DNA of 64,000 bases from Sphingomonas sp. ERG5 (GTDB lineage: Bacteria > Pseudomonadota > Alphaproteobacteria > Sphingomonadales > Sphingomonadaceae), in NCBI RefSeq assembly GCF_000803065.1, contig NZ_JSXI01000026.1, forward strand, positions 62,001 through 126,000, given 5' to 3'. Of this stretch, positions 32,676 through 64,000 are shown in pieces. Within the stretch, counting starts at the first letter, position 1, and each line of letters begins with the position of its first letter. A program made the translations under genes and the position numbers. The notes below the pieces were generated by a model, which searched no databases, had not been told where the DNA came from, and worked only from the letters and a program-made list of their open reading frames with translations.

Positions 32676-32753
32676 ATTGAAAGAATCTGTGCGAGTTGCC
32701 GCCACAATCGGAACAGCGGGCGGACAGTCCGCGCCAATTTTTGGGAGGATAGT

Positions 32754-35195: not shown

Positions 35196-35304
35196 TAAGG
35201 AGAAGCTACAGGCAAGCGGCCCCGGCCGCTCGCCTGTAGCTACGTGGTTGCCGGGAAGATCGACCTACCTACCTGGGTGTTCAGTCCCGGCATCTGCTAG
35301 ATCG

Positions 35305-37955: not shown

Positions 37956-38030
37956 AAATCCCCTCCTCGGACGATTGGCCAACGATGACCGTTCAAAAAC
38001 CCTCTTCACGTCGGCGCTGATCTGGATATA

Positions 38031-38044
38031 TGACAAGCTTGTCA
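38031..38044. promoter_or_regulatory. LacI-type operator between GH3 and sulfatase genes
   Basis: TGACAAGCTTGTCA in the 121-bp divergent gap, 76 bp from the GH3 start and 33 bp from the sulfatase start. Confidence 0.85.
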
Positions 38045-38076
38045 ATACTGCATAACTGAATTGTCGCGGAGAGGCC

Positions 38077-39462: not shown

Positions 39463-39475
39463 TCGGTGGCGATCG

Positions 39476-39724
39476 TCAGCATCCAGGAGGAGGCGCAGTG
39501 CTTTCGCGCGCTAACTCCGGATGGAAGAACAAGCCGATCAGCAATGATCGGTCGCTCGCCATGCGGCGAGCGACCGCGTCAGGGTTGTAGTCGAGCGCGG
39601 CCATCGCTTCGCGCACGCGCTCCCGCACTATCTCGCGAACATTGGGCTCACCATTCATGAGACGGGATACGGTCTTGATTGGAACGCCCGCGCGCTGGGC
39701 AACCTCATGGATGGTAATGCCCAA
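39476..39724 (-). pseudogene. Truncated LacI-family regulator (DNA-binding part only)
   Basis: This 82-residue frame holds a complete LacI helix-turn-helix and hinge region (GITIHEVAQRAGVPIKTVSR, then MNGEPNVR, then ARRMASDRSLLIGLFF) but loses similarity right after FFHPEL and ends within 12 residues. The recognition segment matches the intact LacI at 29813-30871 almost exactly, so it was probably a second regulator of the same operator. A short peptide could still bind DNA weakly, since LacI proteins need dimerisation through the missing domain. It is most likely a decayed gene. Confidence 0.75.
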
Positions 39725-39741
39725 AAACTAGTCTCCGCGAT

Positions 39742-40701
39742 TCACTTCCGGCCCGTGGCGGGCCTGTCATTCCGCCGTGACGATGGCCCAATCGTCCGAT
39801 CGAGAAAGGACCACAGCGTGTCCATAGCGTGATCGAGGATGGATTGCTGGCGCGCCCGGTCCGTCGCTTTCAGGCCATGTTCGGCGCCGGCCACGATCTC
39901 GAGAGAAGTGTCCACCCCGGCGGCGCGTAGCACGCCCGCGAACTGTCCAGACTGATCGAGGGGCACCAGCTTGTCGCTGTCGCCATGGAGCAGGAGAAAA
40001 GGAGGGGCCCCTTTTTTCACATAGGTGGCCGGGCTTGCTGATCGCCGCCGCTCGTCGCATGGCTCCCCAGTAACGCATCCGAGATAGGTGGCTCCCAACA
40101 CTTGCCCATCCATTGCTATCGGGCCGAACCAGTCGGCCACGGCCTGCACGCAGGTTTTCCCCGGTGGCAAGGCAGCATCTTCCGGCTCGAACAGCGCGAT
40201 GCCGCACGTGGTGCCGACAGTCGCTGCGATGGTACCACCGGCCGAGCTGCCCCAAATCGCGACGCGCGTCGGATCGATGCCGTATTTGCCCGCGTGATCC
40301 CGCAGCCAGGCGATTGCCGCTTTCGCGTCGCGGACCTGCCCCGGAAAATGCACGCGCGGCGCCAGCCGGTATTGGATCGACGCGACGACATACCCGCGCG
40401 CTGCCAGGGCGGCGAGGCGAGCGGGAAAATCGGTCGCCGCACCCATCATCCGCGTGTGGCCGGTGACGAATCCGCCCCCATGAACGAAGACGATCGCCGG
40501 GTGCAGGTCGTTTCCCGGCGGGGGAAGATAGAGATCGAGCGCCAGCGTTTCGCCCTCGATCCTCCGATATGGCAGGTCGGCAACGGTCCGCACGCCGCCG
40601 GCAAAGACAGCGGGAAGCGGCGGCGGCACCGATACCTGCTGACAGGACGCCGGCACCGGCAGGCAGGCGGCGAACGCTGCCAACAAGATGTGGCGCCGCA
40701 T
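39742..40701 (-). CDS. Alpha/beta-hydrolase esterase, exported
   Basis: This 319-residue protein has a signal peptide (about 1-20). Hormone-sensitive-lipase and feruloyl-esterase-like features are the oxyanion motif HGGGF (about 75) and the nucleophile elbow GSSAGG (about 151), with Asp near LLHGDSD and His near AEHGLK completing the triad. It probably de-esterifies imported oligosaccharides. Its start overlaps the stop of the upstream TonB receptor by 1 bp, so the two are one operon controlled by the operator at 43202. Confidence 0.88.
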   Translation of the reverse strand: MRRHILLAAFAACLPVPASCQQVSVPPPLPAVFAGGVRTVADLPYRRIEGETLALDLYLPPPGNDLHPAIVFVHGGGFVTGHTRMMGAATDFPARLAALAARGYVVASIQYRLAPRVHFPGQVRDAKAAIAWLRDHAGKYGIDPTRVAIWGSSAGGTIAATVGTTCGIALFEPEDAALPPGKTCVQAVADWFGPIAMDGQVLGATYLGCVTGEPCDERRRSASPATYVKKGAPPFLLLHGDSDKLVPLDQSGQFAGVLRAAGVDTSLEIVAGAEHGLKATDRARQQSILDHAMDTLWSFLDRTIGPSSRRNDRPATGRK

Positions 40702-46300: not shown

Positions 46301-47437
46301 TCAGCGCTTCTCGAGCAGGAACGGAGGTGGATCGACATCGAATTGCATCGACATCTGATTGTAGAACTGTGGCATTCTTCGCAGAAGATCCTCGCCGCTT
46401 TCGGCCCGCCTCGTGAGTTCGATCATCATGATCGTATTGAGGAAGTTCGGCTTACGCTCGATCCGGAGTTGGTCGATGTCGGGCCACACACTGTCCTCAT
46501 TGAACCACGGAAAGCAGACGTCGAGAATATCGCGACCCCGCGGCATATGCCGGTCGCGGGACGCCAACGCGCTGATGGACGCGATCATGTCCGCCAGCTG
46601 CAGGCCGGGCAACGAAGCTGAGGACCCGAACTCGATAGGCCCGGCTAGGTTGACGACGAGGGGTGACGAGCGCCCGCGCATCGTCATGTAAGGTATGTCC
46701 TCGCGGCCAATCATCTCGTCGAAGAAATCGCGGAACTGGAGAAGCGGCTTGGACTGGTCGAAGATCACGTCGAGTTGTCCGTGGCGCTCGCCCATGACCC
46801 GCAGCACGGACATGGCCGAACTGAGGCTGAGGTCCAGCACCCACTGGATGCGGCCATCCGCGTCCGCGAGGCTGGCGACCTCGGCCTCGATCTGCGGGCG
46901 GCAGGCCTCGATGAATCGGTTTATCGTGGCGATGGCGTTTTCCGTGCCGGCGCTGAATCCTGCGAAAACCTCAGCGCTCTCACCCGGCTTGCGGCTCAGC
47001 ATCTTCTGGAAACGGTCGGCGATGTGGGCGGCCGCATTGTCACCGAAGCGAAGGTGGGACCAGATGATGTTCGCGACGTGGAGATGGAATTCGCGCTCGT
47101 AGAAGAACATGTTGTTCGGGGCGAGCACCGGTTCGTAGATGTATTCGAAGAACTTGCAGGCCAGGCTGAAGAGCTTGTCGTTCACGACCACGGTCGCGCG
47201 ATCCCCTAGCCGTTCCGACAGCCAGCGGACGACCTCGAGCGCGTCGGAACGCTTGTAGATTTGCCGGCCCTTGATCTCGGCGCCGAGCACGCCGAACCTG
47301 GTCCGGAACTCCTGGACTAGCAAGGCCGCGGCGTCGGGCTCGATCGCCACGGCCGAGTAACCGAAGAAGGGCTGGTCCGTATCGAGCAGTTTGTCACCGG
47401 TGAACCCGGCGTCGTCGCAGTATATCGTCGTCGCCAT
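46301..47437 (-). CDS. DUF3800-family protein (first of three)
   Basis: This 378-residue protein has an N-terminal acidic motif reading YCDDAGFTG where the family norm is xDESG. The C-terminal motif LQLADMIAS contributes another Asp near residue 290. DUF3800 proteins are predicted to have an RNase H-like fold, with such acidic residues as a possible metal site. The Glu-to-Asp and Ser-to-Ala changes at the first motif may alter activity. The start at 47437 is chosen over 47479 because the protein then begins at the family N-terminus. It is last in a row of three paralogues. Confidence 0.75.
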   Translation of the reverse strand: MATTIYCDDAGFTGDKLLDTDQPFFGYSAVAIEPDAAALLVQEFRTRFGVLGAEIKGRQIYKRSDALEVVRWLSERLGDRATVVVNDKLFSLACKFFEYIYEPVLAPNNMFFYEREFHLHVANIIWSHLRFGDNAAAHIADRFQKMLSRKPGESAEVFAGFSAGTENAIATINRFIEACRPQIEAEVASLADADGRIQWVLDLSLSSAMSVLRVMGERHGQLDVIFDQSKPLLQFRDFFDEMIGREDIPYMTMRGRSSPLVVNLAGPIEFGSSASLPGLQLADMIASISALASRDRHMPRGRDILDVCFPWFNEDSVWPDIDQLRIERKPNFLNTIMMIELTRRAESGEDLLRRMPQFYNQMSMQFDVDPPPFLLEKR

Positions 47438-47494
47438 GGAAGCTCCATCGGTGGGAGTGGGCGTCCAACGTGTGGACACCCGATCGGTTTCGGC

Positions 47495-48568
47495 TCAGTG
47501 AAAGCCAGCCTTGCGCAGCAGCGTGTCGGCGGCGACCAGGTTGATCCCGCGCGCTTCTGGCTGGTGGGTCAATTCCATCACGTTTTGCATGGTGGTCCCG
47601 GCCTCTGCGGAAGGGCGTCTCCCCGTCGCCGCGTCCCGGAAGAAGCGCATCACGAAGCCCGCGAGCACGTCGGCCGCCTGGACGCCTGGCTCGGAGCTGC
47701 TCGCGAACGCGAGGGACGCGTGCTCGCGCAGTCTGTAGTCGGCGTTGGGCAGGATCGGGACCGCCTCCTCGCTGGAGAGACGCTCCATCATCTTCTTGGC
47801 CTCTGTCAGTATCTCGCCGAACAGCATGTGCTCGTCGTGGACCAGGGTCACGTCGGCCAAGTGCCCCCGACGGTATTTGTTGATGCGCGCGTAGATGTTC
47901 GTCAGCGCGGAAAGGCCAGGAAGTATCGAGATCGAGCGACCCGTCACACTTCGGTCGGGAGCCGGCAGGAAGCGGAGGTGCCCGTCTGGCTCTTGTGTGC
48001 CCACGACATCGGCGAGGCTATCGTCGATCATCTCGATGAGGAGGTCGCGAAATTCCCCTCGCTCTGGTTCGCGCGCCCATTTTCGCAGCGCCGGATAGAC
48101 GGCCTCTAGGTCGGCCGGCAGCTCCGTCTCGCAGGCCTTCGCGTAGGCGATCAGGACGATGTCTGGCAAAGACCCCGCCATCAGTTCCACGATGACCTTT
48201 CGCATGATCAAGGCTTTGCCCATCTCATCGAATCCCCGTACCGGAGGCAGGACTAGATAGTTCATCAGGTTGATGATCATCAGGAAGCGCTTGTCCATCA
48301 TCTCGATGAACAGCGGACTGTCGGTCGCGAGCAGGTAGTCGGCGATGCCACCCGCGACCTCGGGCTTCTTCACGAGGTTCGTCGAGCGGAGCTCGGCGCC
48401 GACCACTCCGTGAAGATCGGCCAGACGCCGCAGTTCGGCCGCCAGCGCCACGCCGTCGCGGACGCCGATGGCCGCCAGCACGAAGATCGGCTGATCACCG
48501 AAATCGAGGTGTGCGCCGACCTTGGCTACATCGCCGGTGCTCCCGCTCTCGTCGAGATAGAACCGCAT
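47495..48568 (-). CDS. DUF3800-family protein (second of three)
   Basis: This 357-residue protein begins MRFYLDESGSTG, the canonical DUF3800 opening, and carries VQAADVLAGFV near residue 310 as the second acidic motif. It is shorter and more divergent than the flanking copies. It lies 37 bp downstream of the third copy and 57 bp upstream of the first, so the three are probably one transcript. Catalytic role and substrate are unknown. Confidence 0.75.
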   Translation of the reverse strand: MRFYLDESGSTGDVAKVGAHLDFGDQPIFVLAAIGVRDGVALAAELRRLADLHGVVGAELRSTNLVKKPEVAGGIADYLLATDSPLFIEMMDKRFLMIINLMNYLVLPPVRGFDEMGKALIMRKVIVELMAGSLPDIVLIAYAKACETELPADLEAVYPALRKWAREPERGEFRDLLIEMIDDSLADVVGTQEPDGHLRFLPAPDRSVTGRSISILPGLSALTNIYARINKYRRGHLADVTLVHDEHMLFGEILTEAKKMMERLSSEEAVPILPNADYRLREHASLAFASSSEPGVQAADVLAGFVMRFFRDAATGRRPSAEAGTTMQNVMELTHQPEARGINLVAADTLLRKAGFH

Positions 48569-48605
48569 CAGGCTTCAACCCTGCAGTTTGCGCGACGCCT
48601 CTGCA

Positions 48606-49766
48606 TCAATCGGTCGCGCCGAGGCGAGCGAAGTCCCCCCGATCCCAGCTCAGTTCGGCCTGCGCGTAGAGTTCGGGCAGGAGGAGATACGGATTCTCCC
48701 CGTTTCTCGCCCGCTCGCCGAGCCCGAACAGGATGAGCCAGTTCACGGCCGCCTGCCGCGATCCGGGCTCCACCACGCTGAAGTCGGGCATGATGGAGTG
48801 CGAATGCTGATGCGGATCGAGGGACCCGGCGATCTCCTCGAGCCCCCGCCGCTCCAGATCGCCGCGAAGGCAGGCGGTGGCGGCGCCCGCCACGATGTCG
48901 GCCAGCTGGAGCGAAGGATGGCCGCGCGAGTCGGCGAACTTGATGGGTTCGGACAGTCGCCACCCTTGGCGCTCGCCATGGTTGAACCGATTGTCGGTGA
49001 ACTGGGCGATCGAGGCGATCGTCTCGTCGGTGAGTTCTCCGGCAACGGCCTCGAGCGGCCGGCTATCGTCGCAGGTCACCTTCAGGCGGGCGCCGTCGGC
49101 CCCGAAGTGGCTGAGCAGGCTCCAGAGTCCAGAGATGCCGAGGTCGAGTGTCCAGCGCCCCCCGTCCGGCACTTGCGCGAGACCTTCCAAGTTGTCCGCG
49201 AGTATCTGGTCGCGGTAGCCCTGCGCGAACCGACGGATCATCTCGAAGGGATTTTCCGGATCGAGCGCTTGGACGGGGTCGAAGAGTGAAGGTGCCAGCG
49301 TAGGGTCGAGCGTGCGCATGAACGCCTCGAACTCGCGGATCGCACGCTCGGCCACGTCGTCGCCCGCGACGAAGAACGCGTAGCAATACATCCCGACGAA
49401 TCGATGGAGGTTCTTTTCGTAGAGGAGGGAAGGATCCTCCTTGAAGACCGGCTCGTAGATGTATTCGAACAGCTTGGTGCAGGCGCCCAGCAGCTTGTCG
49501 AAGAGGACGAAGCGGTAGCGGCCGGTGATTGACTCTAGGACGTCGAGCACGAAGGCGCGCCCAGGCGTCGTCTTGAGGAGCGTGTTGGACTTGAGTTCCT
49601 GCCCGGGAATTCCATGCCGCCTGCGCGCCGCATCGAGGATCGACCATGCCTCCTCGTCCGGCACGGCGACGGCGGCGAAGCTGAACACGCGCTGTTCCGG
49701 ATCGAGCAACCGGGTGCCCGTATATCCTGATTCGTCGCAGAAGACCTCGATGGGTTGGTCGGGCAT
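48606..49766 (-). CDS. DUF3800-family protein (third of three)
   Basis: This 386-residue protein begins with EVFCDESGYTGTRLLD, closely resembling the opening of the first copy, and shares with it the FEYIYEPV segment (about residue 110) and LQLADIVAG near residue 285. The first and third copies are therefore the closer pair. The start at 49766 is preferred; the open frame continues to 50039 into the divergent gene. It is the first gene of the DUF3800 row, 97 bp from the divergent membrane-protein gene. Confidence 0.78.
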   Translation of the reverse strand: MPDQPIEVFCDESGYTGTRLLDPEQRVFSFAAVAVPDEEAWSILDAARRRHGIPGQELKSNTLLKTTPGRAFVLDVLESITGRYRFVLFDKLLGACTKLFEYIYEPVFKEDPSLLYEKNLHRFVGMYCYAFFVAGDDVAERAIREFEAFMRTLDPTLAPSLFDPVQALDPENPFEMIRRFAQGYRDQILADNLEGLAQVPDGGRWTLDLGISGLWSLLSHFGADGARLKVTCDDSRPLEAVAGELTDETIASIAQFTDNRFNHGERQGWRLSEPIKFADSRGHPSLQLADIVAGAATACLRGDLERRGLEEIAGSLDPHQHSHSIMPDFSVVEPGSRQAAVNWLILFGLGERARNGENPYLLLPELYAQAELSWDRGDFARLGATD

Positions 49767-49863
49767 GTTGGATAGATAGGGCCGTAACGGCGATGTGCCA
49801 GTATGATGGCTAACCGCACCGGTGGCGTTCATGCTACGCGAAGCCAGTTTGGAGGGCACCGGC

Positions 49864-51375
49864 ATGCAGCGAAGCGTCGTCAATCTGATCGGGTCGGCCA
49901 GGGCGCTATTCTCGATCGTCGCGCTGCTGTTCCTCCTTCCCGCGAGCGCGGTGGCGAACCCGACGCTGAGCGTGTCGCAGCCTGGCGTCACCGTCGAGAC
50001 GGGGCGGCTGACCTCCGTGCTGCTCTCGGTCGATGCCATGCCGGCGAAGGCCTATCTCTATGTCGATGGCGACCCGGGGATCGCGTGGTCGCTCCGACCG
50101 GCAGCGCCTTCGCAGTGGGTCCTGCGCGTCGGGCCCAAAGCGACGCTGACGGCCGACGCAACGCTGACGATCCAGCTGCTCGACGCGGGGAACAAGCCCA
50201 TCGCGGTGACGCAGGTGAAGGTTACGCCCAAGGCGCTGCCCGCGCCTGACAGCGTAGCGGCCCTCACTCTGATGTTGGATGGCGGTGGGCTGGTTGAGGG
50301 TCTCAAGAGCCGCGCCTACCTAGTCGTCACCAACAAGAGCGAGCACGCAATCGCGCTCCGGCGCGTCGATCCGGTCGCCTCGGATGGCATCGTGGTCACC
50401 ATCGATGCGGCTTCCCCCCTGATCATGCCGCGGGAGACGGTGGTCCAGCCCATGACGATCGAGGTCGAGAGGGGACGGGTGCCAAGGACGGGCACGCATC
50501 AGCTGGCGGTCCGGGCGACGCTCACGACGGACCTCACGCCCGCGGAGGCGCGGCTTGCGCGCGGATCGATCGGGGCGCCCAGGTGGGAGGCGCGCGTCGT
50601 CGCCAGCAAGGAGGTGGAGCTGACTGTGCCCGGGCTCAGCGAGCTTCAGGGCATCCTGCAGATCCCGACGCTTCTGCTGTTGCCCGGATTGCTGGCGATG
50701 ATCGCCTTCACCGCCCTGCTCGATCTCGCGAAGCCCAGGCCGGTGGGAGAGAACCCGCTCAGCCGCCTGACGATCGCCCTCTCCCCAGGCGTCTGGGTCA
50801 TCATGATAATGGTCTCGGCGGTCATTGATGCAGCTTATGCGCTCTTGGCGGGTCGGGACATCCTATTCGGCTTCGGGCTTCGCGACCTGGCCACGCTCTG
50901 GTTTGCCTCCCTGATTGTCGGGGGGCTCGTTGGCTGGCGCGCCTACTGCGTGGAGATCGCACGTCAGCGCGCCGCCGCGGCGCCGCGCTTCGCAAACGGC
51001 ATCACGCCGTCGGTGTTCCTCCAGCAGATGGCGCGCGAAGGCGAGCCAATCAGGCGGCGAGCCCGGTTGCTCGGCGAGCAGCTTCTGTTCGATCTTGGAG
51101 CGGTGGATGCGGCCAACCAGCTGTGGGCTTGCGGCGTCATCGTCATGCGCCCCACGGCTACGGGGGGCAGTCAGGTTCTCGACGCCGTCCGGAGCGCCGC
51201 GGATGATGCAGCCCGCATCGTCGTCGTTGTCGGGCTGGTGCAGCAGGGTAAGCTGACTCTGGAGTGGCGGCCCTTCATCGTGGGCGCCGTTCGCGTCGCC
51301 GAGCCACAGATCGTCTCGACCGACCTCTTCGTCGACGTCCTGCGGGACGACACCATCCTGCAGGAGGGTGTCTGA
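49864..51375 (+). CDS. Exported/membrane protein with Ig-like periplasmic part, unknown function
   Basis: This 503-residue protein has a signal peptide (about 1-32, AVA). A beta-rich periplasmic region of about 240 residues follows, then about three membrane helices (near 262-285, 303-325 and 335-357), then a C-terminal part of about 145 residues that is probably cytoplasmic. I recognise no family. The ribosome site GGAGGGCACC supports the ATG at 49864. It is divergent from the DUF3800 row and 101 bp upstream of the next gene. Topology suggests it could link an envelope signal to a cytoplasmic partner. Confidence 0.7.
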   Translation: MQRSVVNLIGSARALFSIVALLFLLPASAVANPTLSVSQPGVTVETGRLTSVLLSVDAMPAKAYLYVDGDPGIAWSLRPAAPSQWVLRVGPKATLTADATLTIQLLDAGNKPIAVTQVKVTPKALPAPDSVAALTLMLDGGGLVEGLKSRAYLVVTNKSEHAIALRRVDPVASDGIVVTIDAASPLIMPRETVVQPMTIEVERGRVPRTGTHQLAVRATLTTDLTPAEARLARGSIGAPRWEARVVASKEVELTVPGLSELQGILQIPTLLLLPGLLAMIAFTALLDLAKPRPVGENPLSRLTIALSPGVWVIMIMVSAVIDAAYALLAGRDILFGFGLRDLATLWFASLIVGGLVGWRAYCVEIARQRAAAAPRFANGITPSVFLQQMAREGEPIRRRARLLGEQLLFDLGAVDAANQLWACGVIVMRPTATGGSQVLDAVRSAADDAARIVVVVGLVQQGKLTLEWRPFIVGAVRVAEPQIVSTDLFVDVLRDDTILQEGV

Positions 51376-53524: not shown

Positions 53525-54508
53525 ATGGAAAATGACGGAACACTTCGGAAAACCTCCGCACGTTATCCGAAGACCGACTCATTCCAGAAGCTGTTTGTCT
53601 GGCATTTCAATCGCGGCACGCGTCCTGACGGTTCTCCTTCTTCTGACGGGAGACCTTGGACGAGATCGGCCTTCGCTGATGCCGCCGGGGTGGACAGCGG
53701 GCGGGCCGTCGGCAATTGGATCAGCGGCAAGAGTCGGCCTCGCGACCTAGACCACCTGCTTAGGGCGTTTTTCGGCCAGGGGAACGCGGCTTACGATGAT
53801 TGGCGTAGCGACCTTCGGATCGCTTATCAGGACGATCACGCTCGCTACGATCAGCCATTACCAGGGAGCACAGAGCCTCTCCCGGCGCATCGCCTGAGAA
53901 TTCTCAGGCCGTACAACTTTGACGACCACGGCTTTATCTCGCAGAGCCACGTTGAACTGCGAGGCGCGAGGGACGGCGCGCGCCGGTCCCTTCACGCTCA
54001 GATCGACTTCTTTGAGCGTCTCTACGTAGAAGATGCCGGGACCAGGGTCGATTTCGGCGTGGCTCGGGCCGTGCTGAGCCTCAAAGCAATTTCTGGCATA
54101 CAGATAGTGCCCAATCCGGCGACGAAGGCCTCTGCCAAAGAGACGATCAGGTACGTGCAGAGGTTTCGCGACAGCGATTTCGGCGTCGTCATTCACCCAC
54201 GTCTGGACGCGGTCTCCCTGGGCGAAGGGGCCTTGCCCAGCGACGGCGACAACAATCGGCTTTGCGCGCTCGCCGATCTGCCCTTGGGCGCTTCGTCGCA
54301 GGATCTGCGGGCCAGCGTTCACATTCGTCTCAATGCAGAAGGCATAGAATTCTTCGGGGACGACACCGTCATCGCCGAACCGAAGATCGGCCAGATGCTG
54401 GCGGTGCTGAAGGCGGCCGCAGGCAAAAATCTCGTCAAAGATGAAGGCTTCATCGTCCATGAGCTCAGCATCGAGGACGAAGAGATTTTCCCGGTGGCGG
54501 TACAATGA
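53525..54508 (+). CDS. Helix-turn-helix-like protein, first gene of the methylase island
   Basis: This 327-residue protein has an N-terminal XRE-like helix-turn-helix signature (FADAAGVDSGRAVGNWISGK, about 49-68) of the kind that binds DNA. The remainder has no domain I recognise; strands and acidic patches dominate the last 100 residues. It overlaps the next gene by 4 bp (ATGA), so the two products are made together, and the pair probably functions as a unit. No nuclease or methylase motif is visible. Confidence 0.7.
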   Translation: MENDGTLRKTSARYPKTDSFQKLFVWHFNRGTRPDGSPSSDGRPWTRSAFADAAGVDSGRAVGNWISGKSRPRDLDHLLRAFFGQGNAAYDDWRSDLRIAYQDDHARYDQPLPGSTEPLPAHRLRILRPYNFDDHGFISQSHVELRGARDGARRSLHAQIDFFERLYVEDAGTRVDFGVARAVLSLKAISGIQIVPNPATKASAKETIRYVQRFRDSDFGVVIHPRLDAVSLGEGALPSDGDNNRLCALADLPLGASSQDLRASVHIRLNAEGIEFFGDDTVIAEPKIGQMLAVLKAAAGKNLVKDEGFIVHELSIEDEEIFPVAVQ

Positions 54509-56688
54509 TCGATTCGCGCGAGTCGCTCGGCGCCATCGCTGACCGAATGGCTCGGCGAGTGCGGGACGGCGATGCAAACTTCAAAGCTCTGGTCGAGATC
54601 GCCGACCTTGATCCAGCGAAGGATTTCGTGGGCGCAGACCTGACCGGTGTTGACTTCAAAAATGAAGACCTGTCCGGTTTTGACTTTCGTCGCGCTGACC
54701 TTAGCTACTCAGACTTTTCCGGCGCGAACCTGGCCGGCTGCCTGTTGACCGGAGCGTTGATGGTCGGAACCATCGGTATCCCGGAATATGCTGGAACGCT
54801 AGAGTACAAGGCAGATCGCCAGCCCGCGCCGTCGATCTTGGTTTTGTTTGCCGGGCGGCGCGCCGAGGAAATCTCACGAAGCATCGAGCCGCCTGACTGG
54901 AGCCCCGATCGCGGCGGCGCCGACTTGGGCTGGAGGTTCGTGGTCGCGCACGGAAAGGAAAGGCGCGATCGTCATCCCTTTGTTGGACTGATTCAGGTTG
55001 CCGCCGTCGGGGCAGATCTGCCCGGCACGGCTTTCGACGTCATCGTGGTGCTCGCCGACAGCGACTCCGACGTAGATGCTAGCCTTGACTGGATAAACGC
55101 CAAACTCGACAGCAAGATAAGACTTTTGGCGCCTGCTCCGCCACGAGATCGACCGTCTCGATTGCTGACAGATCAACCGGCGCGCGGGTTCAACGCGGTC
55201 ATTGATACCTCGATCGCGCGCTCGCCATTCTGGTCGGGCAACGTCTCAAGGGCACTCGATCGTCGAATCGCGGACACCGCCATCGGGGTCGCGACCGTCG
55301 TTTCATCCTCAGATGACATCGCCACGCGTCTGAGCCAGATGGAAGATCCGAGAACACCGGTGGTGACGCTTGCTTTTGGACCCGCCGCCATGGGCTCATC
55401 TCAGGCGCCCGTGCTTTCCCTCTCGTCCGAAGCGGTCGGCCTGGTCCGGGTTGATCAAGGTTTGCCCGATCTGTTTCACTTTCAACCGTACTGGATACGC
55501 CAGCGTCCGAAGGATGCGGAGCTGGGTCTTTTCCTTATTAGCAGTGATCTTCAGGCCAGCACGTCGAGCTTCCTGCACGCGGCCGCCGACCATGCACTTG
55601 CTCGGCGCAAGCTGGACCTGATCGATGGTAATGAGATCCCTGCTGATATTCTGGGGGAACTGGCCTTCAGCGGGCATTCGGCGGGGCTTCGCGCCTCAAC
55701 GGGCCGAGGACCGGCCACGGCCATTGTCGCTGAAACGCCCACGATGAAGCTGGTTCATAGCGCGGCCAAGGTCGGTTGGAGGGTCGCCCGCTACACCGAC
55801 GGACTTTTCATTGCCGAGACGTTGTCGCCTGACGCGCCTTCGTCTCCACGCCAGTTGCCCAACGAGCTGGTATTGCCCAAAGCCAGACGCCGGCCAGAAA
55901 ACCGGGGTCTGGTCACGCGCGGCGCCGACTCCCGTGACATCCTCGTTTTTAAAGAGGCGTTCGTTGACCGAATTCGTTCTGATGCTCCGGACCTGGCTCG
56001 GTCGATCCGACAATTTCGTCCTGCCTTCGCGCAGCCCGGCATCCTCGAATTCATGGTGCCCACGTATGAGGTCTCGCAATGGCTTGCTGACGATCACGAC
56101 AAGTCGATGCGCGCCGAGCTGGATAGCTTGCGCGCGGGAAAGCCACGCGTGCCCAAGCGGCCGGCGGATCTCCGGGTTGCCTGCGGCGAACCTGCACCGG
56201 ACGCCATGCGTTTCGCAATCGCCGACGGGCTGCTGCCGGTTCGCCTTGACCAGCTAGCCCGGCATGAGGTGCCGGCCCAATCGATGTTCATCATCGACGG
56301 TGACGCGGCGGTCCCTGCGCTCCTGCAATCGTCGGTTTTTGCTGTGTGGGCGCGCGCGACCGCGACCCGCTCGACAAGCTGGATGGCTGCCCGCTTTTCC
56401 GTGACCGGAACGTTCGAGACCTTTCCGATCGTCGGAGCGTTTGACGTCGCGAGCTTCGGCCCAGGGAACGTGCAACTGCGTCTGGTCGGTGACGAACGGC
56501 TATATGGCCTTGCTCGGGATTGGCTCGTCGAGATGGATAAGCAATGGGAGACTGGCCAGTTGGCCGAGAAACAGGGAGAAATCCGACGCCACCTGGACGA
56601 GGAGATCCTTGGCTTGTATCGCCTTTCGCCAGACGCTGATGATCTGCAAATCCTTGAGCGCCTTCTAGAGTTGAACGAGGGAGATTAA
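54505..56688 (+). CDS. Pentapeptide-repeat protein with MmeI-like target-recognition C-terminus
   Basis: This 727-residue protein starts with a short helix, then pentapeptide repeats (about 40-87: ADLTGVDF, FRRADLSYSDFSGANL). A central region of about 500 residues is unassigned. Residues 609-642 (VFAVWARATAT, then RFSVTGTFETFP) match the conserved core of target-recognition domains in MmeI/Eco57I-type enzymes, where Arg/Trp and the TFETFP-like stretch recur. The last 35 residues (RRHLDEEILGLY, then ILERLLELN) also match their C-terminal tail. Methylase motifs such as NPPY and nuclease motifs are absent. It may be a stand-alone specificity subunit for the neighbouring methylase or ATPase system. 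Confidence 0.65.
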   Translation: MIDSRESLGAIADRMARRVRDGDANFKALVEIADLDPAKDFVGADLTGVDFKNEDLSGFDFRRADLSYSDFSGANLAGCLLTGALMVGTIGIPEYAGTLEYKADRQPAPSILVLFAGRRAEEISRSIEPPDWSPDRGGADLGWRFVVAHGKERRDRHPFVGLIQVAAVGADLPGTAFDVIVVLADSDSDVDASLDWINAKLDSKIRLLAPAPPRDRPSRLLTDQPARGFNAVIDTSIARSPFWSGNVSRALDRRIADTAIGVATVVSSSDDIATRLSQMEDPRTPVVTLAFGPAAMGSSQAPVLSLSSEAVGLVRVDQGLPDLFHFQPYWIRQRPKDAELGLFLISSDLQASTSSFLHAAADHALARRKLDLIDGNEIPADILGELAFSGHSAGLRASTGRGPATAIVAETPTMKLVHSAAKVGWRVARYTDGLFIAETLSPDAPSSPRQLPNELVLPKARRRPENRGLVTRGADSRDILVFKEAFVDRIRSDAPDLARSIRQFRPAFAQPGILEFMVPTYEVSQWLADDHDKSMRAELDSLRAGKPRVPKRPADLRVACGEPAPDAMRFAIADGLLPVRLDQLARHEVPAQSMFIIDGDAAVPALLQSSVFAVWARATATRSTSWMAARFSVTGTFETFPIVGAFDVASFGPGNVQLRLVGDERLYGLARDWLVEMDKQWETGQLAEKQGEIRRHLDEEILGLYRLSPDADDLQILERLLELNEGD

Positions 56689-56710: not shown

Positions 56711-56728
56711 TGTGACCACAATGTCACA
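56711..56728. promoter_or_regulatory. Inverted repeat upstream of the methyltransferase
   Basis: Arms TGTGAC (56711-56716) and GTCACA (56723-56728) with a 6-bp spacer, 34 bp before the start at 56763. The methyltransferase has an N-terminal helix-turn-helix-like domain, so autoregulation through this site is plausible, as in other such methylases. Confidence 0.5.
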
Positions 56729-56762
56729 CCGTATGCGTGCCGCGCCTCGCTATCATTGTAGA

Positions 56763-59165
56763 ATGACCACGCCGACGAATCATGAACCGACACCTCCGGC
56801 CGCCGGTTCGCTAATGGCGCGCATTAGGGACACGATCGCGGAGCGCGGCGTGCCCGAAAGGACGGCCGCAGCGGAAATCGGCGTGGGTCTCGCGACCCTG
56901 CAGATCCATCTGGCCGGAGAGCACGTTCGAAGTGACTCGGCCCGCAAGTATGAAGACTGGCTGGCTGGTCGACGCGCTAGTTCGAACGTCTTTGTGCTGC
57001 AGAAACACGAAGTGGACGCAGAACCCGAAATCGATCGCGAAGACCCGCCTTCACCGCCCGCCAAGCCTCGCCTGGTGGTCGATATCTTCTCCGGCTGTGG
57101 CGGATTGAGCCTTGGCTTTGACCTTTTCGGCGGGGGAGAACACTACCGCACGATTCTTGCGCTCGATATCCAACCCGCTCCAATCGCCACGCTCAATCGC
57201 AATGCGGTGTTGATGGGGCATGGCGATCACCCAGTTGGCCGAACGACCGACCTCACCGAATTCATGAACGAGGCCGAGGTCCTGGCCCTCTATCTCCAGC
57301 ACGCAGGAGGAGCACTTGGAGACCCCAATCTGCTGGGTTCGCTAAAGCGCCTGCAAAGCGGGGCCTTTCCGGCTTTCCTCGACTCAATCGCGCGAGCCGA
57401 CCAGATCTTCCTCGAACAGCTGAATGAAGTGCGGGCGGGTGCCGCATGGCGCGATGCTTACGATCAGATCGATCAGCAGGCGCTGAGCCAGACGTCGGTG
57501 ATCAATTTTCACGATCAGCTGCGCCTGCCGCGCCCATCTTCCAAAGTGGCGACCATGCCACCGATCCTGTGGAGCGAGCATTCGGGCGACCTTGGAAAGG
57601 CCAGGACGCCGAAGCCCAGGATCGATATGGCGCGGCTGCAGCAGGCGCAGTGGGAATGGGACGAACAGGTCGCAAGCGTTTCTCTCAAGCAGGAAGCCAG
57701 GGGGCGGGGTCAGCTGAATGCTTCCGCGAGACGGGTGTCGGCCTTTGTCAGGTTCCTTGAGACGCCCGGCATGGAGGCCGTGCGGCAGGTCTGGCTTCGC
57801 TGGCGCGCCCGACGTCTGGTGCTTCGCTCTACGCTATTCGAAGACGAAATGTTCGGCGCAGGCCTGCGCGAGCTCTATCTGCAATCGGCAAAGGTTTCCG
57901 TCCTCGTCGGCGGCCCCCCTTGCCAGGGTTTCAGCCGGATCGGTCGAGGGAAGATCCGCAGCCTGCGCGACGCCCGCGTCCATGCGCACGGTAGCGCTGA
58001 GGCCGGCGATGCCCGGAACCTCCTGTTCCAGCAATATGTGATGGTGCTGGGAGCGTTGCGTCCTGACGTCTTCGTGTTTGAGAACGTCCAGCATTTCCAG
58101 TCGGTGGTGAAAGCTGACGGGGTCGAATTCCAGGCTACGGACGTCCTGGCCGAAGCCATCGCAAATATGTCGGATGGCGAGGCGAACTATCGCGTTTCGT
58201 CAGACGTGCTCGACGCTTCCAGATATGGCGTGCCACAGAACCGTCAGCGGTATTTCATGACCGGTGTGCTCGCGCGGGCCGACGTGGAGGCAGCGGGCAA
58301 GGACGCCCTCAGCTGTCTGGATCTGCGACGTGATCGTGAGGCGCCCCTGTCGCTGGCTCTTGCCGGCTTGCCGGCCCCGGCGGTTGCAGGAGGAACCGTA
58401 AAGAGCGGTTCCGCCATGTCGGAACGTGTACTTGTCGACGAGACCGCGCTGGGCGAACACCCCTTCGTCAAGTGGGTGCGTCAGCCGCGACCTGGAACCA
58501 CGAGTCCGCCGCTGTCCGTTGATGCACATGCCGCCAGGGCCCCTAGGGCAGACGACGCCGCGTTCTTCGCCCTGATGGGACCGGGAAAACGTTGGATGGA
58601 CTATCGGGCGGACGACTCCAAAACCATTGCTGAGCTGAGCGGCGTGATTCGGTCGCTCCTGGCCTTGTCGGAGCGTCACTATGATCAACTCGCGAAGGTG
58701 ACCACTGAGGCGGGCGAGCCCATGCGTGACCGAGAGGGACTGCGTAATCTTCAAAGCCGGATCAACGGATCCTTGCCGCTTCGTCTTCTTCTGGAGCAGG
58801 CTGGGGAAAAGCTTGGCGCGCCTCACCATCTTCTGGGCGAGGGTTATCTAGCAAAGCAGGAGGGTAATCACGGCGATTGGGTTTCGCGCATGGACGCATC
58901 CCGCCCGGCCAAGACGATGGTCAGCCATATGAACAAGGACACCTATGCCTATGTCCACCCTTCGGCGCCAAGAACCATTTCGGTGCGCGAAGCCGCCCGC
59001 ATCCAAAGCTTCCCGGACTGGTTCTCCTTCGGTGACGCGGCGCTGACGGATGCGTTCAAGATGATCGGCAACGCGGTGCCGCCCATGCTCAGTCACGCCA
59101 TCGCCGGTCGAGTGGCGCACGTACTCAGCCGACGTGAGGCCATCTGGAAGCGACGGAAGGCCTGA
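56763..59165 (+). CDS. DNA (cytosine-5) methyltransferase with N-terminal HTH and large insertion
   Basis: This 800-residue protein has a helix-turn-helix-like N-terminus (about 15-70), then the 5mC methylase: motif I VDIFSGCGGLS (about 106), motif IV GGPPCQGFS with catalytic Cys at about 387, motif VI FENV (about 440), motif VIII QNRQRYF, and motif X GNAVPPM near the C-terminus. The usual 60-80 residues between motifs I and IV are replaced by about 270, a large insertion of unknown role. It methylates cytosine in a fixed sequence. The Vsr gene follows 32 bp later, as expected for a methylase that creates T:G mismatches by deamination. Confidence 0.93.
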   Translation: MTTPTNHEPTPPAAGSLMARIRDTIAERGVPERTAAAEIGVGLATLQIHLAGEHVRSDSARKYEDWLAGRRASSNVFVLQKHEVDAEPEIDREDPPSPPAKPRLVVDIFSGCGGLSLGFDLFGGGEHYRTILALDIQPAPIATLNRNAVLMGHGDHPVGRTTDLTEFMNEAEVLALYLQHAGGALGDPNLLGSLKRLQSGAFPAFLDSIARADQIFLEQLNEVRAGAAWRDAYDQIDQQALSQTSVINFHDQLRLPRPSSKVATMPPILWSEHSGDLGKARTPKPRIDMARLQQAQWEWDEQVASVSLKQEARGRGQLNASARRVSAFVRFLETPGMEAVRQVWLRWRARRLVLRSTLFEDEMFGAGLRELYLQSAKVSVLVGGPPCQGFSRIGRGKIRSLRDARVHAHGSAEAGDARNLLFQQYVMVLGALRPDVFVFENVQHFQSVVKADGVEFQATDVLAEAIANMSDGEANYRVSSDVLDASRYGVPQNRQRYFMTGVLARADVEAAGKDALSCLDLRRDREAPLSLALAGLPAPAVAGGTVKSGSAMSERVLVDETALGEHPFVKWVRQPRPGTTSPPLSVDAHAARAPRADDAAFFALMGPGKRWMDYRADDSKTIAELSGVIRSLLALSERHYDQLAKVTTEAGEPMRDREGLRNLQSRINGSLPLRLLLEQAGEKLGAPHHLLGEGYLAKQEGNHGDWVSRMDASRPAKTMVSHMNKDTYAYVHPSAPRTISVREAARIQSFPDWFSFGDAALTDAFKMIGNAVPPMLSHAIAGRVAHVLSRREAIWKRRKA

Positions 59166-59197: not shown

Positions 59198-59716
59198 GTG
59201 CAGGCGATGGCAAAACAGGGCGTCGTTCGAACCGCGCGCAATCCGGACCCGCTGACGCCCGCGCAACGTAGCCGAAATATGTCCCGAATCCGGGCGCGGG
59301 ACACGAAGCCCGAGCTGCTTCTGAGGCGGGCTCTCCATGCCGCCGGCCTCCGCTACCGGCTCCACGATCACCGTCTGCCGGGGACGCCGGATCTCGTGCT
59401 GCCTGGCCGTCGCGCCGTGATCTTTGTCCACGGGTGTTTCTGGCACGGGCACAATTGTCCCAAAGGCGTTACCCCTGGAACAAACACCTTGTTCTGGACA
59501 GAAAAGATCGCGCGAAATCGCGAACGAGACGCCAGAACTGACAACGCGCTCGTCGATGCGGGCTGGAGGGTTATAACGATCTGGGAGTGCGCCATTCGTG
59601 GGATCGCGCGGCATGACCTGCCCAACGTCGTCCATGAAGTCTTCGACTGGCTTGAAGGCAATGATCCCGCGCATGAGATTACAGGCCGCTGGCCGTCCGG
59701 CACTAACGAGGCCTGA
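59198..59716 (+). CDS. vsr: Very-short-patch repair endonuclease Vsr
   Basis: This 172-residue protein nicks 5' of T in T:G mismatches formed when 5-methylcytosine deaminates. Family features include RSRNMSRIRARDTKPELLLRRALH (by its ends, about 24-47), the metal-ligand region GTPDLVLP, and FVHGCFWHGHNC with the zinc-type Cys/His residues, then WRVITIWECA. The GTG at 59198 has AGAGGA at the right spacing; an ATG at 59207 is possible. It lies between the methylase and the ATPase genes. Confidence 0.93.
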   Translation: MQAMAKQGVVRTARNPDPLTPAQRSRNMSRIRARDTKPELLLRRALHAAGLRYRLHDHRLPGTPDLVLPGRRAVIFVHGCFWHGHNCPKGVTPGTNTLFWTEKIARNRERDARTDNALVDAGWRVITIWECAIRGIARHDLPNVVHEVFDWLEGNDPAHEITGRWPSGTNEA

Positions 59717-60176: not shown

Positions 60177-61655
60177 ATGGCCCGCCACCACCGTCTTCCA
60201 CCGAGTGCAGCCTCGCTCTCCGCCTCGATGCGGGATCTGGGCTATTCGATGGAGACCGCGGTCGCCGATCTCATCGACAACAGTATTTCGGCGGGGGCGA
60301 CGAAGATCGACATCCTTTGCGACGTCACTGGCGCCGATCCGTTTCTTGCAATCATCGACAACGGCCGGGGGATGGCATCCGACGAGCTCATCGCGGCCAT
60401 GAAACACGGCAGCGCGAGCCCGAGGATGAAACGTGACGCACATGATCTCGGCCGCTTCGGTCTTGGCCTCAAGACAGCCTCATTCTCCCAGTGCCGGCGT
60501 CTAACCGTTCTGAGCGAGAAAGCTTCCGAACGGAGTGCGGCGGAGTGGGATCTCAACCGCATCGACCGGGAGGACGACTGGATGCTGTCGGTCCTCGACG
60601 ATACCGAAATCTCCGCGCTGCCCTGTGCGGACCGCCTGTCCGATCATGGCACTGTCGTGATCTGGCGGGAGCTGGATCGCTTCATGGAGGATGAGCGCGG
60701 CCAACGGCGCTACGATATCGTCAATGAGAAGCTTGATGTTGTGGAGAGGCATCTGGCCCTGGTCTTCCACCGCTTTCTTTCCGGTGAACTGAAGGGTCGC
60801 AACCGCATCGCCATCACCCTGAATGGCCACCCGATCCAGCCGTTCGATCCGTTCTGCCGGAAGAATACCGCGACCCGCTACTTGCCGGAGGACTTCGTCG
60901 AAGTGGACGGTGAGCGAGTGCGGCTCCAGCCTTATATCCTGCCGCATCACAGCAACCTCAGCCCTGCCGAATACGACTTCTATCAGAGCCGCAGCGACTT
61001 CATTTCGAACCAGGGGGCGTACATCTACCGCAATGGTCGCCTGATGGCCTGGGGCGACTGGTTCCGCCTGGTCCCCAAAGGCGAAGCAACGAAACTCGCG
61101 CGGGTCCAGATCGACTTCCCCAACAACCTCGACGAGTCGTGGACCATCGACATCAAGAAATCTCGCGCACGTCCACCTTTGCCAGTGCGCGAACGCATGC
61201 GCCAGATCATCGGCCAAGTGACAGGCGCAAGTACGACAGTCCATCGCGGAAGGGGTCAGAAGCTCTTCAACGAAGCCACGGCTCCCCTCTGGGAGCGGTT
61301 TGCTGACCAGGGGCGCGTCCGCTACGCGGTGAACGGCGGGCACCCGCTGGTGGAGGCACTTCGCTCCCGCGTTACCGGTGGCGACGCGAAACTCCTCGAG
61401 ATGTTTGTGGATGCCGTCGGGGCCGCCATCCCGATCGAGATGATCTACTCCGACTACGCAATGCACCCGCTGGAGATGGCCCAGAGCGACGTGAACAGAG
61501 AGGATGTTATCGAGCGCCTGAAAGAACTCAGAGCTGTGTTTTCAGATGACGCAGCTATCGGAGGAAGTGCCTTTCGTGAAATCGTACGCTCAACGCGCCT
61601 CTTCGATTCTCACCTGGATATCATCGAGAGTTTCATAATTGAGGAATTTTCATGA
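60177..61655 (+). CDS. MORC-like GHKL ATPase
   Basis: This 492-residue protein has a GHKL (HATPase) domain: motif N1 LIDNS (about 32-36), N2 DNGRGM (61-66) and N3 GRFGLGLKTAS (92-102), followed by a transducer-like S5 region. This type of ATPase is seen next to Z1, Vsr and methylase genes in bacterial restriction-like loci, and is related to eukaryotic MORC proteins. It probably clamps or remodels DNA on ATP binding. It begins by TGATG overlap with the frame upstream and ends by ATGA overlap with the Z1 gene, indicating tight coupling to that gene. Confidence 0.9.
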   Translation: MARHHRLPPSAASLSASMRDLGYSMETAVADLIDNSISAGATKIDILCDVTGADPFLAIIDNGRGMASDELIAAMKHGSASPRMKRDAHDLGRFGLGLKTASFSQCRRLTVLSEKASERSAAEWDLNRIDREDDWMLSVLDDTEISALPCADRLSDHGTVVIWRELDRFMEDERGQRRYDIVNEKLDVVERHLALVFHRFLSGELKGRNRIAITLNGHPIQPFDPFCRKNTATRYLPEDFVEVDGERVRLQPYILPHHSNLSPAEYDFYQSRSDFISNQGAYIYRNGRLMAWGDWFRLVPKGEATKLARVQIDFPNNLDESWTIDIKKSRARPPLPVRERMRQIIGQVTGASTTVHRGRGQKLFNEATAPLWERFADQGRVRYAVNGGHPLVEALRSRVTGGDAKLLEMFVDAVGAAIPIEMIYSDYAMHPLEMAQSDVNREDVIERLKELRAVFSDDAAIGGSAFREIVRSTRLFDSHLDIIESFIIEEFS

Positions 61656-64000
61656 ATGTCAGCAGGACCGAGCAGGAAAAGAACTTCATCAGTTCGCTGA
61701 TCTCCGGCCTGTCGAACCTCAAGGAGCCCCCTACCCGCGCCCAGGTGGAAGCGAAGGCACGTGCCCTTGCAACAGTCTTCGATTATGATGGGGAACTTGC
61801 CAACATTATTGAAGAGGCCCTGATCGCCGTCGATACGCGAATGGGTGCCGGCGTGTCCCTCGTCGATCACGAAGCCGATCATGACGACCAGTGGGCGCGG
61901 AAGCGCGAGATCACGTCGACCTACTCGGATGCCTATGAAGCCTTCCTCAAACAGGAGGGCTGGCACCCGACCCTGGTTCAGTCGTTGAGCGATGTCTGCA
62001 GTCGCATTCTGGGGCATCTGCAGGACCCACTCAGCCATGGATCGTGGAATCGCCGTGGGCTGGTCATCGGCCATGTGCAGTCCGGCAAGACAGCTAATTA
62101 CACGGGTGTGATCGCGAAGGCCGCTGACGCCGGCTACAAGTTCATTGTCGTCAGCGCGGGGATACACAGTAACCTGCGTCGCCAGACCCAGGAACGGATC
62201 GATGAAGCGTTCGTCGGCCGTTCATCTGACCCGGAGAACCGGGTTGCGATCGGTGTAGGCCTAAACAAGGATTTCCCGCATCCGGCGACGCTGACTACCA
62301 TCCACAGCGACTTCAATAAGAAGACCGCCGAAGCCGGCTGGAAGATCAACGACTTCAGCAAGCCGATTGTGATCGTCATCAAGAAGAACGTGCGAACCTT
62401 GGAATCGCTCTACAAGTGGCTCAAGGAACTGAATGCCCGCAGGGACGGTCAGATCGGTGATGTGCCGATGTTGTTCATCGACGATGAGGCTGACAACGCA
62501 TCGATCAACACCAACAAGGAAGATGTCGATCCGACACGGACTAACGCGATGATCCGGCGCGTTCTCCGCCTCTTCTCCAAGTCATGTTACGTCGGCTACA
62601 CGGCCACGCCGTTCGCCAACATCTTCATCAATCCGGACGCCTATGATGACGATGTCCGCGAGGAGCTTTTCCCTCGAAACTTCATCTACAGCCTCGATCC
62701 GCCGAACTCCTATTTCGGTCCCCACAAGGTATTTGTGGATGAAGCGAGCAGCGACCGCATCGTAAGGCCGATCACGGACTGCGAAGGGTTCATTCCGTCG
62801 TCCCATAAGAACGGCGATGTGGTCACGGAGCTTCCGCCAAGTCTGTACGGTGCCCTCGACGAGTTCATCATCGCTCGGACGATACGCAACCTGCGCGGCC
62901 AGGCGGCGAAGCATTGCTCGATGCTCATCAACGTCTCGCGCTTCGTATCCACACAGAAGCAGGTGAGAGACTTCATCAGCCTTCGCCAGAACCAGATTCA
63001 GTTGGCTGTGAAGGCGAATTACGCACTTCCTGTACCCGAGAGGGAGGCGGACGAGCACTTGCACCGGCTCAAAGAGGCGTTCCTGAAGGAGTACAGCTCC
63101 AGCGGCGTCACATGGCTGGAGGTGAGGAGGGCGCTTTTTTCGGCGTTCGAGCAGATGCGCATTTTCGTTGTGAACAGCAAAAGCGACGAGGTGCTCGATT
63201 ACCGGAAGTACGAACGCGAGGGCGTCGGTCTCACTGCGATCGCGGTCGGCGGATTAAGCCTGTCGCGCGGCCTGACGATTGAAGGCCTGACGATCAGCTA
63301 CATGTACCGGAACACCCGCATGTACGACACGCTGCTCCAAATGGGGCGGTGGTTCGGGTACCGGCCAAATTTTGAAGACCTCTGCCGGGTCTACCTCTCG
63401 CAGGATTCCATCAGCTGGTACCGATACATCTCTAGGGCGACGGAGGAACTTCGCGAACAGATCAGGCGCATGCGGCGCGCTGAGATGACGCCCAGAGAGT
63501 TCGGACTTTACGTAGAATCCCACCCGGACGCGCTACTCATCACCGCAGCGAACAAGATGCGTTCCGGCCAGCCGATCACGGTCAGCCAAAACTACTCGCT
63601 CCAGCTGAAGGAAAGTTCGAAGGTTCCGATCGATCACGCGATCAGCAGGGCCAACGAGGACCTCATCCGCGAATACTGGCGTAATGGCTTCAATGGCAGG
63701 AAGGTTGTACGCACCAATAAGGGGTGGGCGGTCAGCGATGTGGACGAGGAGGTCGTCCAGAACTTTCTCGGCCGCTTCCGAGTTCATGAGGATTTCAAGC
63801 CGCTTAAAGGCGGAATCGTCAACTATCTCGACCGAATAAAGGACCAGCATTCCAAGGTGGATGTCCTTCTCATCTCCCTGAAAGACGGCGGTGAGGATGA
63901 GGCGGAATTCCGACTGGGTGCCCAAGAACGTGATGCCTCGCCGAAACGCATCGACAACGGGGGCTGGCGTCTCGCCAGCTACCGAGTCGCAAGCCGTGGC
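61652..64000 (+). CDS. Z1-domain superfamily NTPase, cut off by the window end
   Basis: The frame from ATG 61652 is open to the last base (783 codons) with no stop, so the protein is incomplete at its C-terminus. A P-loop reads GHVQSGKTANYTG (about 139-151), with an acidic Walker-B-like FIDDEADNAS at about 275-284 and a helicase-like GYTATPFANIF at about 315-325. These are the defining features of Z1-domain proteins, superfamily-2-related NTPases that accompany MORC-like ATPases. It overlaps the ATPase gene by 4 bp. It likely acts with that ATPase on unmodified DNA; a nuclease may be encoded downstream of the window. Confidence 0.88.
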   Translation, partial: MNVSRTEQEKNFISSLISGLSNLKEPPTRAQVEAKARALATVFDYDGELANIIEEALIAVDTRMGAGVSLVDHEADHDDQWARKREITSTYSDAYEAFLKQEGWHPTLVQSLSDVCSRILGHLQDPLSHGSWNRRGLVIGHVQSGKTANYTGVIAKAADAGYKFIVVSAGIHSNLRRQTQERIDEAFVGRSSDPENRVAIGVGLNKDFPHPATLTTIHSDFNKKTAEAGWKINDFSKPIVIVIKKNVRTLESLYKWLKELNARRDGQIGDVPMLFIDDEADNASINTNKEDVDPTRTNAMIRRVLRLFSKSCYVGYTATPFANIFINPDAYDDDVREELFPRNFIYSLDPPNSYFGPHKVFVDEASSDRIVRPITDCEGFIPSSHKNGDVVTELPPSLYGALDEFIIARTIRNLRGQAAKHCSMLINVSRFVSTQKQVRDFISLRQNQIQLAVKANYALPVPEREADEHLHRLKEAFLKEYSSSGVTWLEVRRALFSAFEQMRIFVVNSKSDEVLDYRKYEREGVGLTAIAVGGLSLSRGLTIEGLTISYMYRNTRMYDTLLQMGRWFGYRPNFEDLCRVYLSQDSISWYRYISRATEELREQIRRMRRAEMTPREFGLYVESHPDALLITAANKMRSGQPITVSQNYSLQLKESSKVPIDHAISRANEDLIREYWRNGFNGRKVVRTNKGWAVSDVDEEVVQNFLGRFRVHEDFKPLKGGIVNYLDRIKDQHSKVDVLLISLKDGGEDEAEFRLGAQERDASPKRIDNGGWRLASYRVASRG

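Follow-up and report, generated by a model that had tools for sequence, protein, structure and literature searches.

The window analysed here is a 64,000-nucleotide stretch of the Sphingomonas sp. ERG5 genome (contig NZ_JSXI01000026.1, positions 62,001 to 126,000), and the subject is P0001, a protein encoded there by an open reading frame (ORF) next to an operon related to the Mza systems. The C-terminus of P0001 is supported, by sequence profiles and a predicted structure, as an MmeI-type target-recognition domain (TRD) plus a helical bundle, with no methylase or nuclease detectable in the chain. Our preferred reading, which we put a little short of an even chance, is that P0001 is a specificity-like DNA reader serving the adjacent Mza-like system or its partner.

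A first-pass annotation of this DNA had noted the motifs WARATAT, RFSVTGTFETFP and LDEEILGLY..ERLLELN in the C-terminus, all of which are found there, and had proposed an MmeI-type recognition domain without a methylase or nuclease, which the profile comparisons bear out. Taken as a single sequence, the C-terminus matches hidden Markov models weakly, with expectation values (E) of 0.039 for PF20466 (MmeI_TRD, under the cut-off), 0.0017 for REase_MTase_IIG of PADLOC and 0.015 for a PHROG of unknown function. A four-member family profile of it (P0001 residues 455-727) matches three type IIG proteins at E 3.2e-9, 2.7e-7 and 9.5e-7. In hhalign, this C-terminal profile and an alignment of 16 type IIG sequences match at Prob 97.3 and E 1.7e-11, over about residues 534-727.

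A second set consists of 24 viral type IIG TRDs, which searches with sequences from the first set had returned; against it the C-terminal family profile scores 70.7 in hhalign (Prob 96.6). The best of 100 column shuffles reaches 21.2 and the reversed control 15.9, while the family without P0001 scores 61.1 and P0001 alone 43.2 (E 7.7e-6). The 24, also used in the alignment for structure modelling, were drawn from 31 viral type IIG loci found; L067, L081, L086, L087, L092, L093 and L094 were dropped, some as duplicates, near-duplicates or partial and others without a particular reason. Because of the family-profile matches and their shuffle controls, we take the P0001 C-terminus to be homologous to the MmeI-type TRD and bundle.

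The structural prediction, suggested by the first-pass annotation as a check on this domain, points the same way. An AlphaFold2 model of residues 455-727 (pLDDT 68.4, pTM 0.67; five models, 45.2-68.4) has two MmeI chains as its sole PDB matches below E 0.001. In a fold search that compared 83 chains, VIA-align places model positions 1-273 on MmeI (5HR4) residues 622-902 with Z 14.3 and a root-mean-square deviation of 4.7 over 242 residues, followed by CamA (Z 8.9), BrxX (6.9) and BpuSI (5.7). The MmeI-aligned range also takes in the opening part of the model, for which the MmeI-family rows consist mostly of gaps. As many as 24 of the 26 rows in the model alignment are type IIG TRDs; the model backs the fold but depends on the sequence evidence.

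P0001 resembles the MmeI-type enzymes (type IIL/IIG, PDB 5HR4) in having the TRD-N and TRD-C parts of the domain followed by a helical bundle, which is residues 826-919 in MmeI (PMC4833311; here and below, statements on cited papers refer to the available parts of them). The W, R-[FY]-S and FP positions are likewise conserved. The PD-(D/E)XK nuclease and helical spacer of MmeI are missing from P0001, as is any recognisable N6-methylase; P0001 carries pentapeptide repeats and an uncharacterised region instead. Pfam returns no PD-(D/E)XK nuclease family at E <= 1, the N-terminus being taken by the repeats; the motifs NPP and DPxCGxG, which the gamma N6-adenine methylase domain of these enzymes carries as NPPY/F and DPACGSG, are missing from the sequence; and the Pfam, NCBIfam and PADLOC scans give no methylase or nuclease family besides the TRD matches. 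Apart from the weak C-terminal ones, matches in Pfam, NCBIfam and PHROGs are confined to the pentapeptide part.

The pentapeptide repeats, which the first-pass annotation had placed at residues 40-87, are real: PF00805 matches residues 44-83 at E 2.1e-10 with 40.4 bits over a Pfam cut-off of 20.2, and about ten D/N-L/F-x-x units can be counted by eye over residues 40-89. The net charge is -5 over the 48 residues of this part and -8 over residues 1-104. No pentapeptide match occurs in the three relatives described below (two by search, that of locus L025 by alignment), and their N-terminal residues, about 260, show no relation to this part of P0001.

The middle region has its conservation peak at residues 205-254 (LLAPAPP...VIDTSIARSPFW). 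It matches neither type IIG alignment in hhalign, with Prob 0.05-0.1 for the 16-sequence set and Prob <= 0.3 for the second set of 24 viral sequences, whose template holds the TRD part only; a degenerate methylase, which may still be present here, has no sequence support. Among PDB sequences the family profile has one match, at E 0.13, to a tyrosyl-DNA phosphodiesterase over profile positions 144-300, which we take as chance. The full-length P0001 model built from two sequences (pLDDT 29) leaves the middle fold unreadable.

A tubulin/FtsZ-like middle was also tried, from motif order, and rejected at the sequence level: 8 of 100 column shuffles scored above its 19.7, the highest at 23.2. The Tubulin_2 search matched 0 of 120. 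As a separate observation, a different search gave the window's own genome two FtsZ/tubulin-family matches, E 4.0e-49 and 6.3e-40, at G000:C1:163518-163997 and G000:C67:106205-106684, and the other 14 genomes that it matched one each.

Four family members are found in all. A tblastn search of plasmids gave a 902-residue relative in Rhizobium sp. B230/85 (P0002, locus L021), with 30% identity over P0001 residues 105-725. A search from the Rhizobium protein gave an 888-residue relative in Sinorhizobium sp. B11 (P0005, L024), and a contig scan with the two-sequence alignment one of 912 residues in Rhizobiales AFS000733 (L025). An earlier contig scan with P0001 had produced 45 candidate stretches, none of them a relative.

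The family is rare in the genome, viral and phage samples searched. Three sets taken around the genome of the window, of 385, 296 and 398 genomes, gave one match (its own), two (its own and one TRD-only) and four (its own and three TRD-only), respectively. A set of 249 around the L025 genome (G1018) gave four, G1018 itself and three TRD-only. P0001 matched 37 of 289 genomes in another set and, among the matches listed, all those outside its own genome cover the N-terminal repeats. These sets overlap. No relative appeared in viral contigs, nor in phages, where the query was P0001 residues 96-727; P0004, the product of the gene before P0001, likewise gave none in phages.

Three of the four members adjoin the same kind of operon, in two arrangements. 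In the window P0001 lies upstream, its stop codon 23 bases before GTG 56712, which is the earliest start codon in the methyltransferase ORF, and homologues of MzaB, MzaC, MzaD and MzaE stand in this order downstream (PADLOC). In Rhizobium sp. B230/85 the reader and a partner of another family, A, lie directly downstream of the AIPR gene, with 34 bases before partner A, and in L025 the pair likewise directly follows AIPR. Of these two rhizobial loci, Vsr is seen in L021 only, as L025 begins inside the methyltransferase gene. The first-pass term of a stand-alone recognition subunit thus fits P0001 as a protein and not its genomic setting, where genes for a C5-methyltransferase, Vsr, a MORC-type ATPase, a Z1 protein, a PD-(D/E)XK nuclease and an AIPR protein follow on the same strand.

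The reader and the nuclease diverge faster than the rest of the operon. Between the Rhizobium and L025 loci the identity is 84% for the methyltransferase (295 aligned residues), 85% for the ATPase, 89% for Z1, 85% for AIPR and 81% for A, against 68% for the PD-(D/E)XK protein and 64% for the reader. Within the reader, TRD-C is 78% identical and the other parts 56-67%. The window protein compared with the two rhizobial ones gives 47-49% in TRD-C and 28-31% in the middle, TRD-N and bundle as wholes, with two peaks at residues 205-254 and in TRD-C at 565-634. Compared with the Sinorhizobium protein, only the 205-254 peak stands out.

That TRD-C is better kept than the bundle in this family is opposite to the order in 19 viral MmeI-family rows, which are 43.8% identical in the segment aligned with residues 546-604 and 78.5% in the bundle. 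The contrast with type IIG is not general, because four other type IIG rows also have TRD-C (66%) above the bundle (57.5%). With moderate confidence, the TRD-C conservation, seen in three of the four members, suggests a fixed target, to which the Sinorhizobium member fits less.

From the window to the relatives, the N-terminus and the partner change in step, which with four members is a pattern and not a proof. In the window the partner is P0004, whose N-terminus looks by eye like a helix-turn-helix (HTH); the Pfam, PADLOC, NCBIfam and PHROGs scans give it no family match, HTH families included. Its N-terminal 100 or so residues are the only part that recurs in other proteins. In all three relatives the adjoining partner is a family A protein, of 265-279 residues in Rhizobium and L025. 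Family A and P0004 show no relation to each other, and no A gene belongs to the pair in the window.

Family A was also seen apart from the reader. In all eight loci read, A (about 265 residues; the L032 copy is annotated shorter) is followed directly by a second gene of varied size, for 303-441 or about 900 residues, and its plasmid hosts are Rhizobium, Bradyrhizobium, Methylobacterium, Phaeobacter and Sinorhizobium. The A matches H10, H13, H17 and H18 are not among these eight. This arrangement suggests a two-gene cassette of a defence or toxin type. The short second genes compared with the long members' N-terminus are collinear and not significant (Prob 1.3, E 0.042). PDB and Pfam searches with family A gave nothing useful; we suspect an ADP-ribosyltransferase-like fold from its motif order alone.

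By family scores the operon is a Mza relative and not MZA proper. The Pfam matches of Z1, DUF4420 and AIPR are all above cut-off, and the NCBIfam equivalog cut-offs are missed, with 483.8 of 1500 bits for MzaC (Z1 scored as the part inside the window, 782 of 891 residues), 123.4 of 420 for MzaD and 337 of 1050 for MzaE. PADLOC finds no MzaA among the five proteins scanned, and the contig ends soon after AIPR; the upstream side of the MzaB relative is occupied by the methyltransferase and vsr genes. Read by eye, the catalytic motifs are kept in the methyltransferase, Vsr, ATPase and Z1 sequences. Pfam finds no PLD or B3 match in the operon proteins scanned. The coordinates of all features are collected in Table 1.

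Table 1. Features of the P0001 neighbourhood and of the loci compared with it (positions in the window unless a locus is named)
Feature	Position	Strand	Basis or remark
P0004, 327 aa	53525..54508	+	HTH-like N-terminus by eye; 4-base overlap with P0001
P0001	54505..56688	+	open ORF, 727 aa; pentapeptide N-terminus, uncharacterised middle, predicted MmeI-type TRD, C-terminal helical bundle
Pentapeptide repeats, residues 40-87	54622..54765	+	PF00805 and register by eye
Conserved middle region, residues 105-454	54817..55866	+	common to P0001 and three relatives
Predicted MmeI-type TRD, residues 455-642 (about)	55867..56430	+	hhalign (~534 onward), model, fold search
Predicted C-terminal helical bundle, residues 643-727	56431..56685	+	hhalign; helices at model positions 199-272
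C5-cytosine DNA methyltransferase, extra N-terminal segment, start codon unsettled	56712..59165	+	PF00145 E 3.6e-41; GGPPCQGFS and ENV motifs
Vsr endonuclease	59198..59716	+	PF03852 E 7.2e-34
HSP90/MORC-type ATPase, MzaB relative	60177..61655	+	PF13589 E 1.9e-33; PADLOC MzaB E 2.7e-85
Z1-domain ATPase, MzaC relative	61652..64000, past window end	+	PF10593 249.7 bits; PADLOC MzaC 2.5e-117
PD-(D/E)XK, MzaD-like (DUF4420)	after Z1, beyond window (L023)		PF14390 211.7 bits; PADLOC MzaD 1e-20
AIPR, MzaE-like	beyond window (L023)		PF10592 329.1 bits; PADLOC MzaE 1.4e-78
Family A two-gene cassettes	L032 6178-8059; L033 5956-7657; L034 5980-7988; L035 5914-7946; L037 5986-7988		
Family A and ~900-aa reader pairs	L021 10010-13515; L024 12130-15623; L025 8376-11926		

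A few side observations concern the rest of the window. The N-terminal extension of the methyltransferase (56712-57000) resembles a small HTH by eye. On the minus strand at 46301-50039, three adjoining ORFs of 392, 357 and 477 residues match DUF3800 above cut-off with 36.5, 35.1 and 40.6 bits. At 30896-43121, two sulfatase-like and two TonB-receptor-like proteins, a glycosidase-like protein and an esterase-like ORF, labelled by reading, are likely a carbohydrate-use cluster.

HsdS, the specificity subunit with two TRDs and coiled coils, is a separate DNA-reading subunit without catalysis, as P0001 would be. Pfam gives P0001 no HsdS-type family match at E <= 1. DndH is the nearest precedent that we found for a TRD without an active methylase (PMC10853773). 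It is one large protein with a helicase remnant, an inactive methyltransferase (MTase), a restriction endonuclease (REase) and HerA/FtsK domains; it uses a methylase-type TRD as P0001 would, and its other domains are not found in P0001. In a survey of BREX systems, TRDs are described within methyltransferases (PMC12839542).

A Mza-like 'type II' system with a cytosine methyltransferase has been described (PMC9523054), and the function and mechanism of such a system are said there to need investigation still. MzaABCDE and this related system share with the genes beside P0001 the MORC-type ATPase, Z1, PD-(D/E)XK, AIPR and cytosine methyltransferase; no sigma-factor MzaA is seen among the five proteins scanned with PADLOC, and the MzaC, MzaD and MzaE matches stay under the NCBIfam cut-offs. 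The available part of that account names no P0001-like protein. Neither does any among the matches listed in a literature search of titles and abstract starts, with most subscription journals and preprints outside its coverage. MORC-related ATPases have been reported near C5-methylases and vsr genes (PMC8011034).

Like the window's operon, the CglI and NgoAVII systems bring together a C5-methyltransferase, an ATPase containing Z1, and a nuclease, and there it is the B3 domain of the nuclease that recognises the site and sets off ATP hydrolysis (PMC4267653). In them B3 is fused to a PLD nuclease, whereas beside P0001 the nuclease is PD-(D/E)XK and the separate TRD protein is the candidate reader.

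In the mechanism that we propose, P0001 shares the TRD and bundle with the MmeI-type enzymes and would have lost, or never had, the methylase and nuclease. Through its TRD it would bind one particular feature of DNA, which would probably be a fixed one. The middle region and the member-specific N-terminal domain would relay the recognition to the co-translated partner, P0004 here and another family in the relatives, and also to the adjoining Mza-like machinery of the Z1 ATPase and PD-(D/E)XK nuclease. Methylation by the C5-methyltransferase would label the cell's own DNA, and where methylated cytosines deaminate, Vsr would repair the damage. The domain homology, gene order, tight spacing and recurrence beside operons come from the computation; DNA binding, contact with the Mza proteins, an antiviral function and the direction of signalling are what we infer from them.

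Several findings weigh against such a reader. The base-contact positions of MmeI, taken from PMC4833311 and mapped by eye, are mostly not conserved in P0001: R630 falls at R810, and L805, E806 and R808, which serve base pairs 5 and 6, are not kept. TRD-C of the Sinorhizobium protein is only 26-31% identical to those of other members, which speaks against a family-wide fixed target. With their shared arrangement, the two rhizobial loci are counted as a single event. Beside the Sinorhizobium sp. B11 pair no operon is detected, 11 operon proteins finding nothing in its 29-kb locus (tblastn, E 0.001). The family's middle profile is absent from all seven other Z1 plasmid loci inspected, hand-chosen and not random among 37 other records, and therefore Mza-like systems do not need the P0001 family. 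In these seven, the C-terminal profile matches only a separate DNA methyltransferase, that of L040 (E 0.0034).

The lone Sinorhizobium pair and the seven Z1 loci are also what would be expected if P0004 and P0001 were an autonomous two-gene defence cassette, a reader with an effector or adaptor, standing near the operon only through the clustering of defence genes. This is likewise in line with family A occurring on plasmids with other second genes, in five of which (L032-L035 and L037) the TRD profile finds nothing. It fits less well with three of four members adjoining the operon in two arrangements at short spacing, and with the lack of an A gene in the window's pair. Because the family is missing from the seven Z1 loci and one member stands alone, the reader coupled to the operon is held only tentatively and the autonomous cassette is kept as a real, if less probable, possibility. 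It is improbable that P0001 and P0004 are transcriptional controllers of the operon with the TRD as an operator-binding domain: the window's pair opens the operon, and P0004 has the HTH-like, recurring N-terminus, but no HTH family matches it, and in the two operon-linked relatives the pair comes last with a partner unrelated to P0004.

Still less probable is a decayed type IIG enzyme, in which the methylase core would have diverged past recognition to leave an inactive methylase with a TRD, as in DndH, which also keeps an REase (PMC10853773). With 350 residues, the middle region is similar in size to the methylase of MmeI (residues 301-620), and it directly precedes the TRD; the hhalign result and the missing motifs given above go against this, a methylase fold being still possible. 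The first-pass annotation had also raised DNA mimicry by the pentapeptide part. An anti-restriction mimic would accord with the repeats and the charge of the first 104 residues, but we reject it as highly improbable on the repeat number of about ten, the NCBIfam scores far under cut-off (MfpA 22.2 of 360, Qnr 13.2 of 240 and QnrD 13.9 of 425 bits) and the absence of the repeats in three relatives that keep the TRD.

Returning to the reader coupled to the operon, we regard it as possible, though doubtful, that the family makes a new class of defence reader. Its TRD would be freed from methylase and nuclease and directed to one fixed DNA feature. A new conserved domain, marked by the motif VIDTSxARSPFW, and exchangeable pairs of N-terminus and partner would couple it to a methyltransferase-Vsr-MORC-Z1-nuclease-AIPR system, and recognition in this system would then have a module of its own, apart from the methyltransferase. 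A conserved rather than diversified TRD-C would be unusual. If true, the DNA-reading end of the type IIL enzymes would be movable as a module into another defence setting, and a separable reader beside the Mza-like operon would make the discrimination of self and foreign DNA directly testable.

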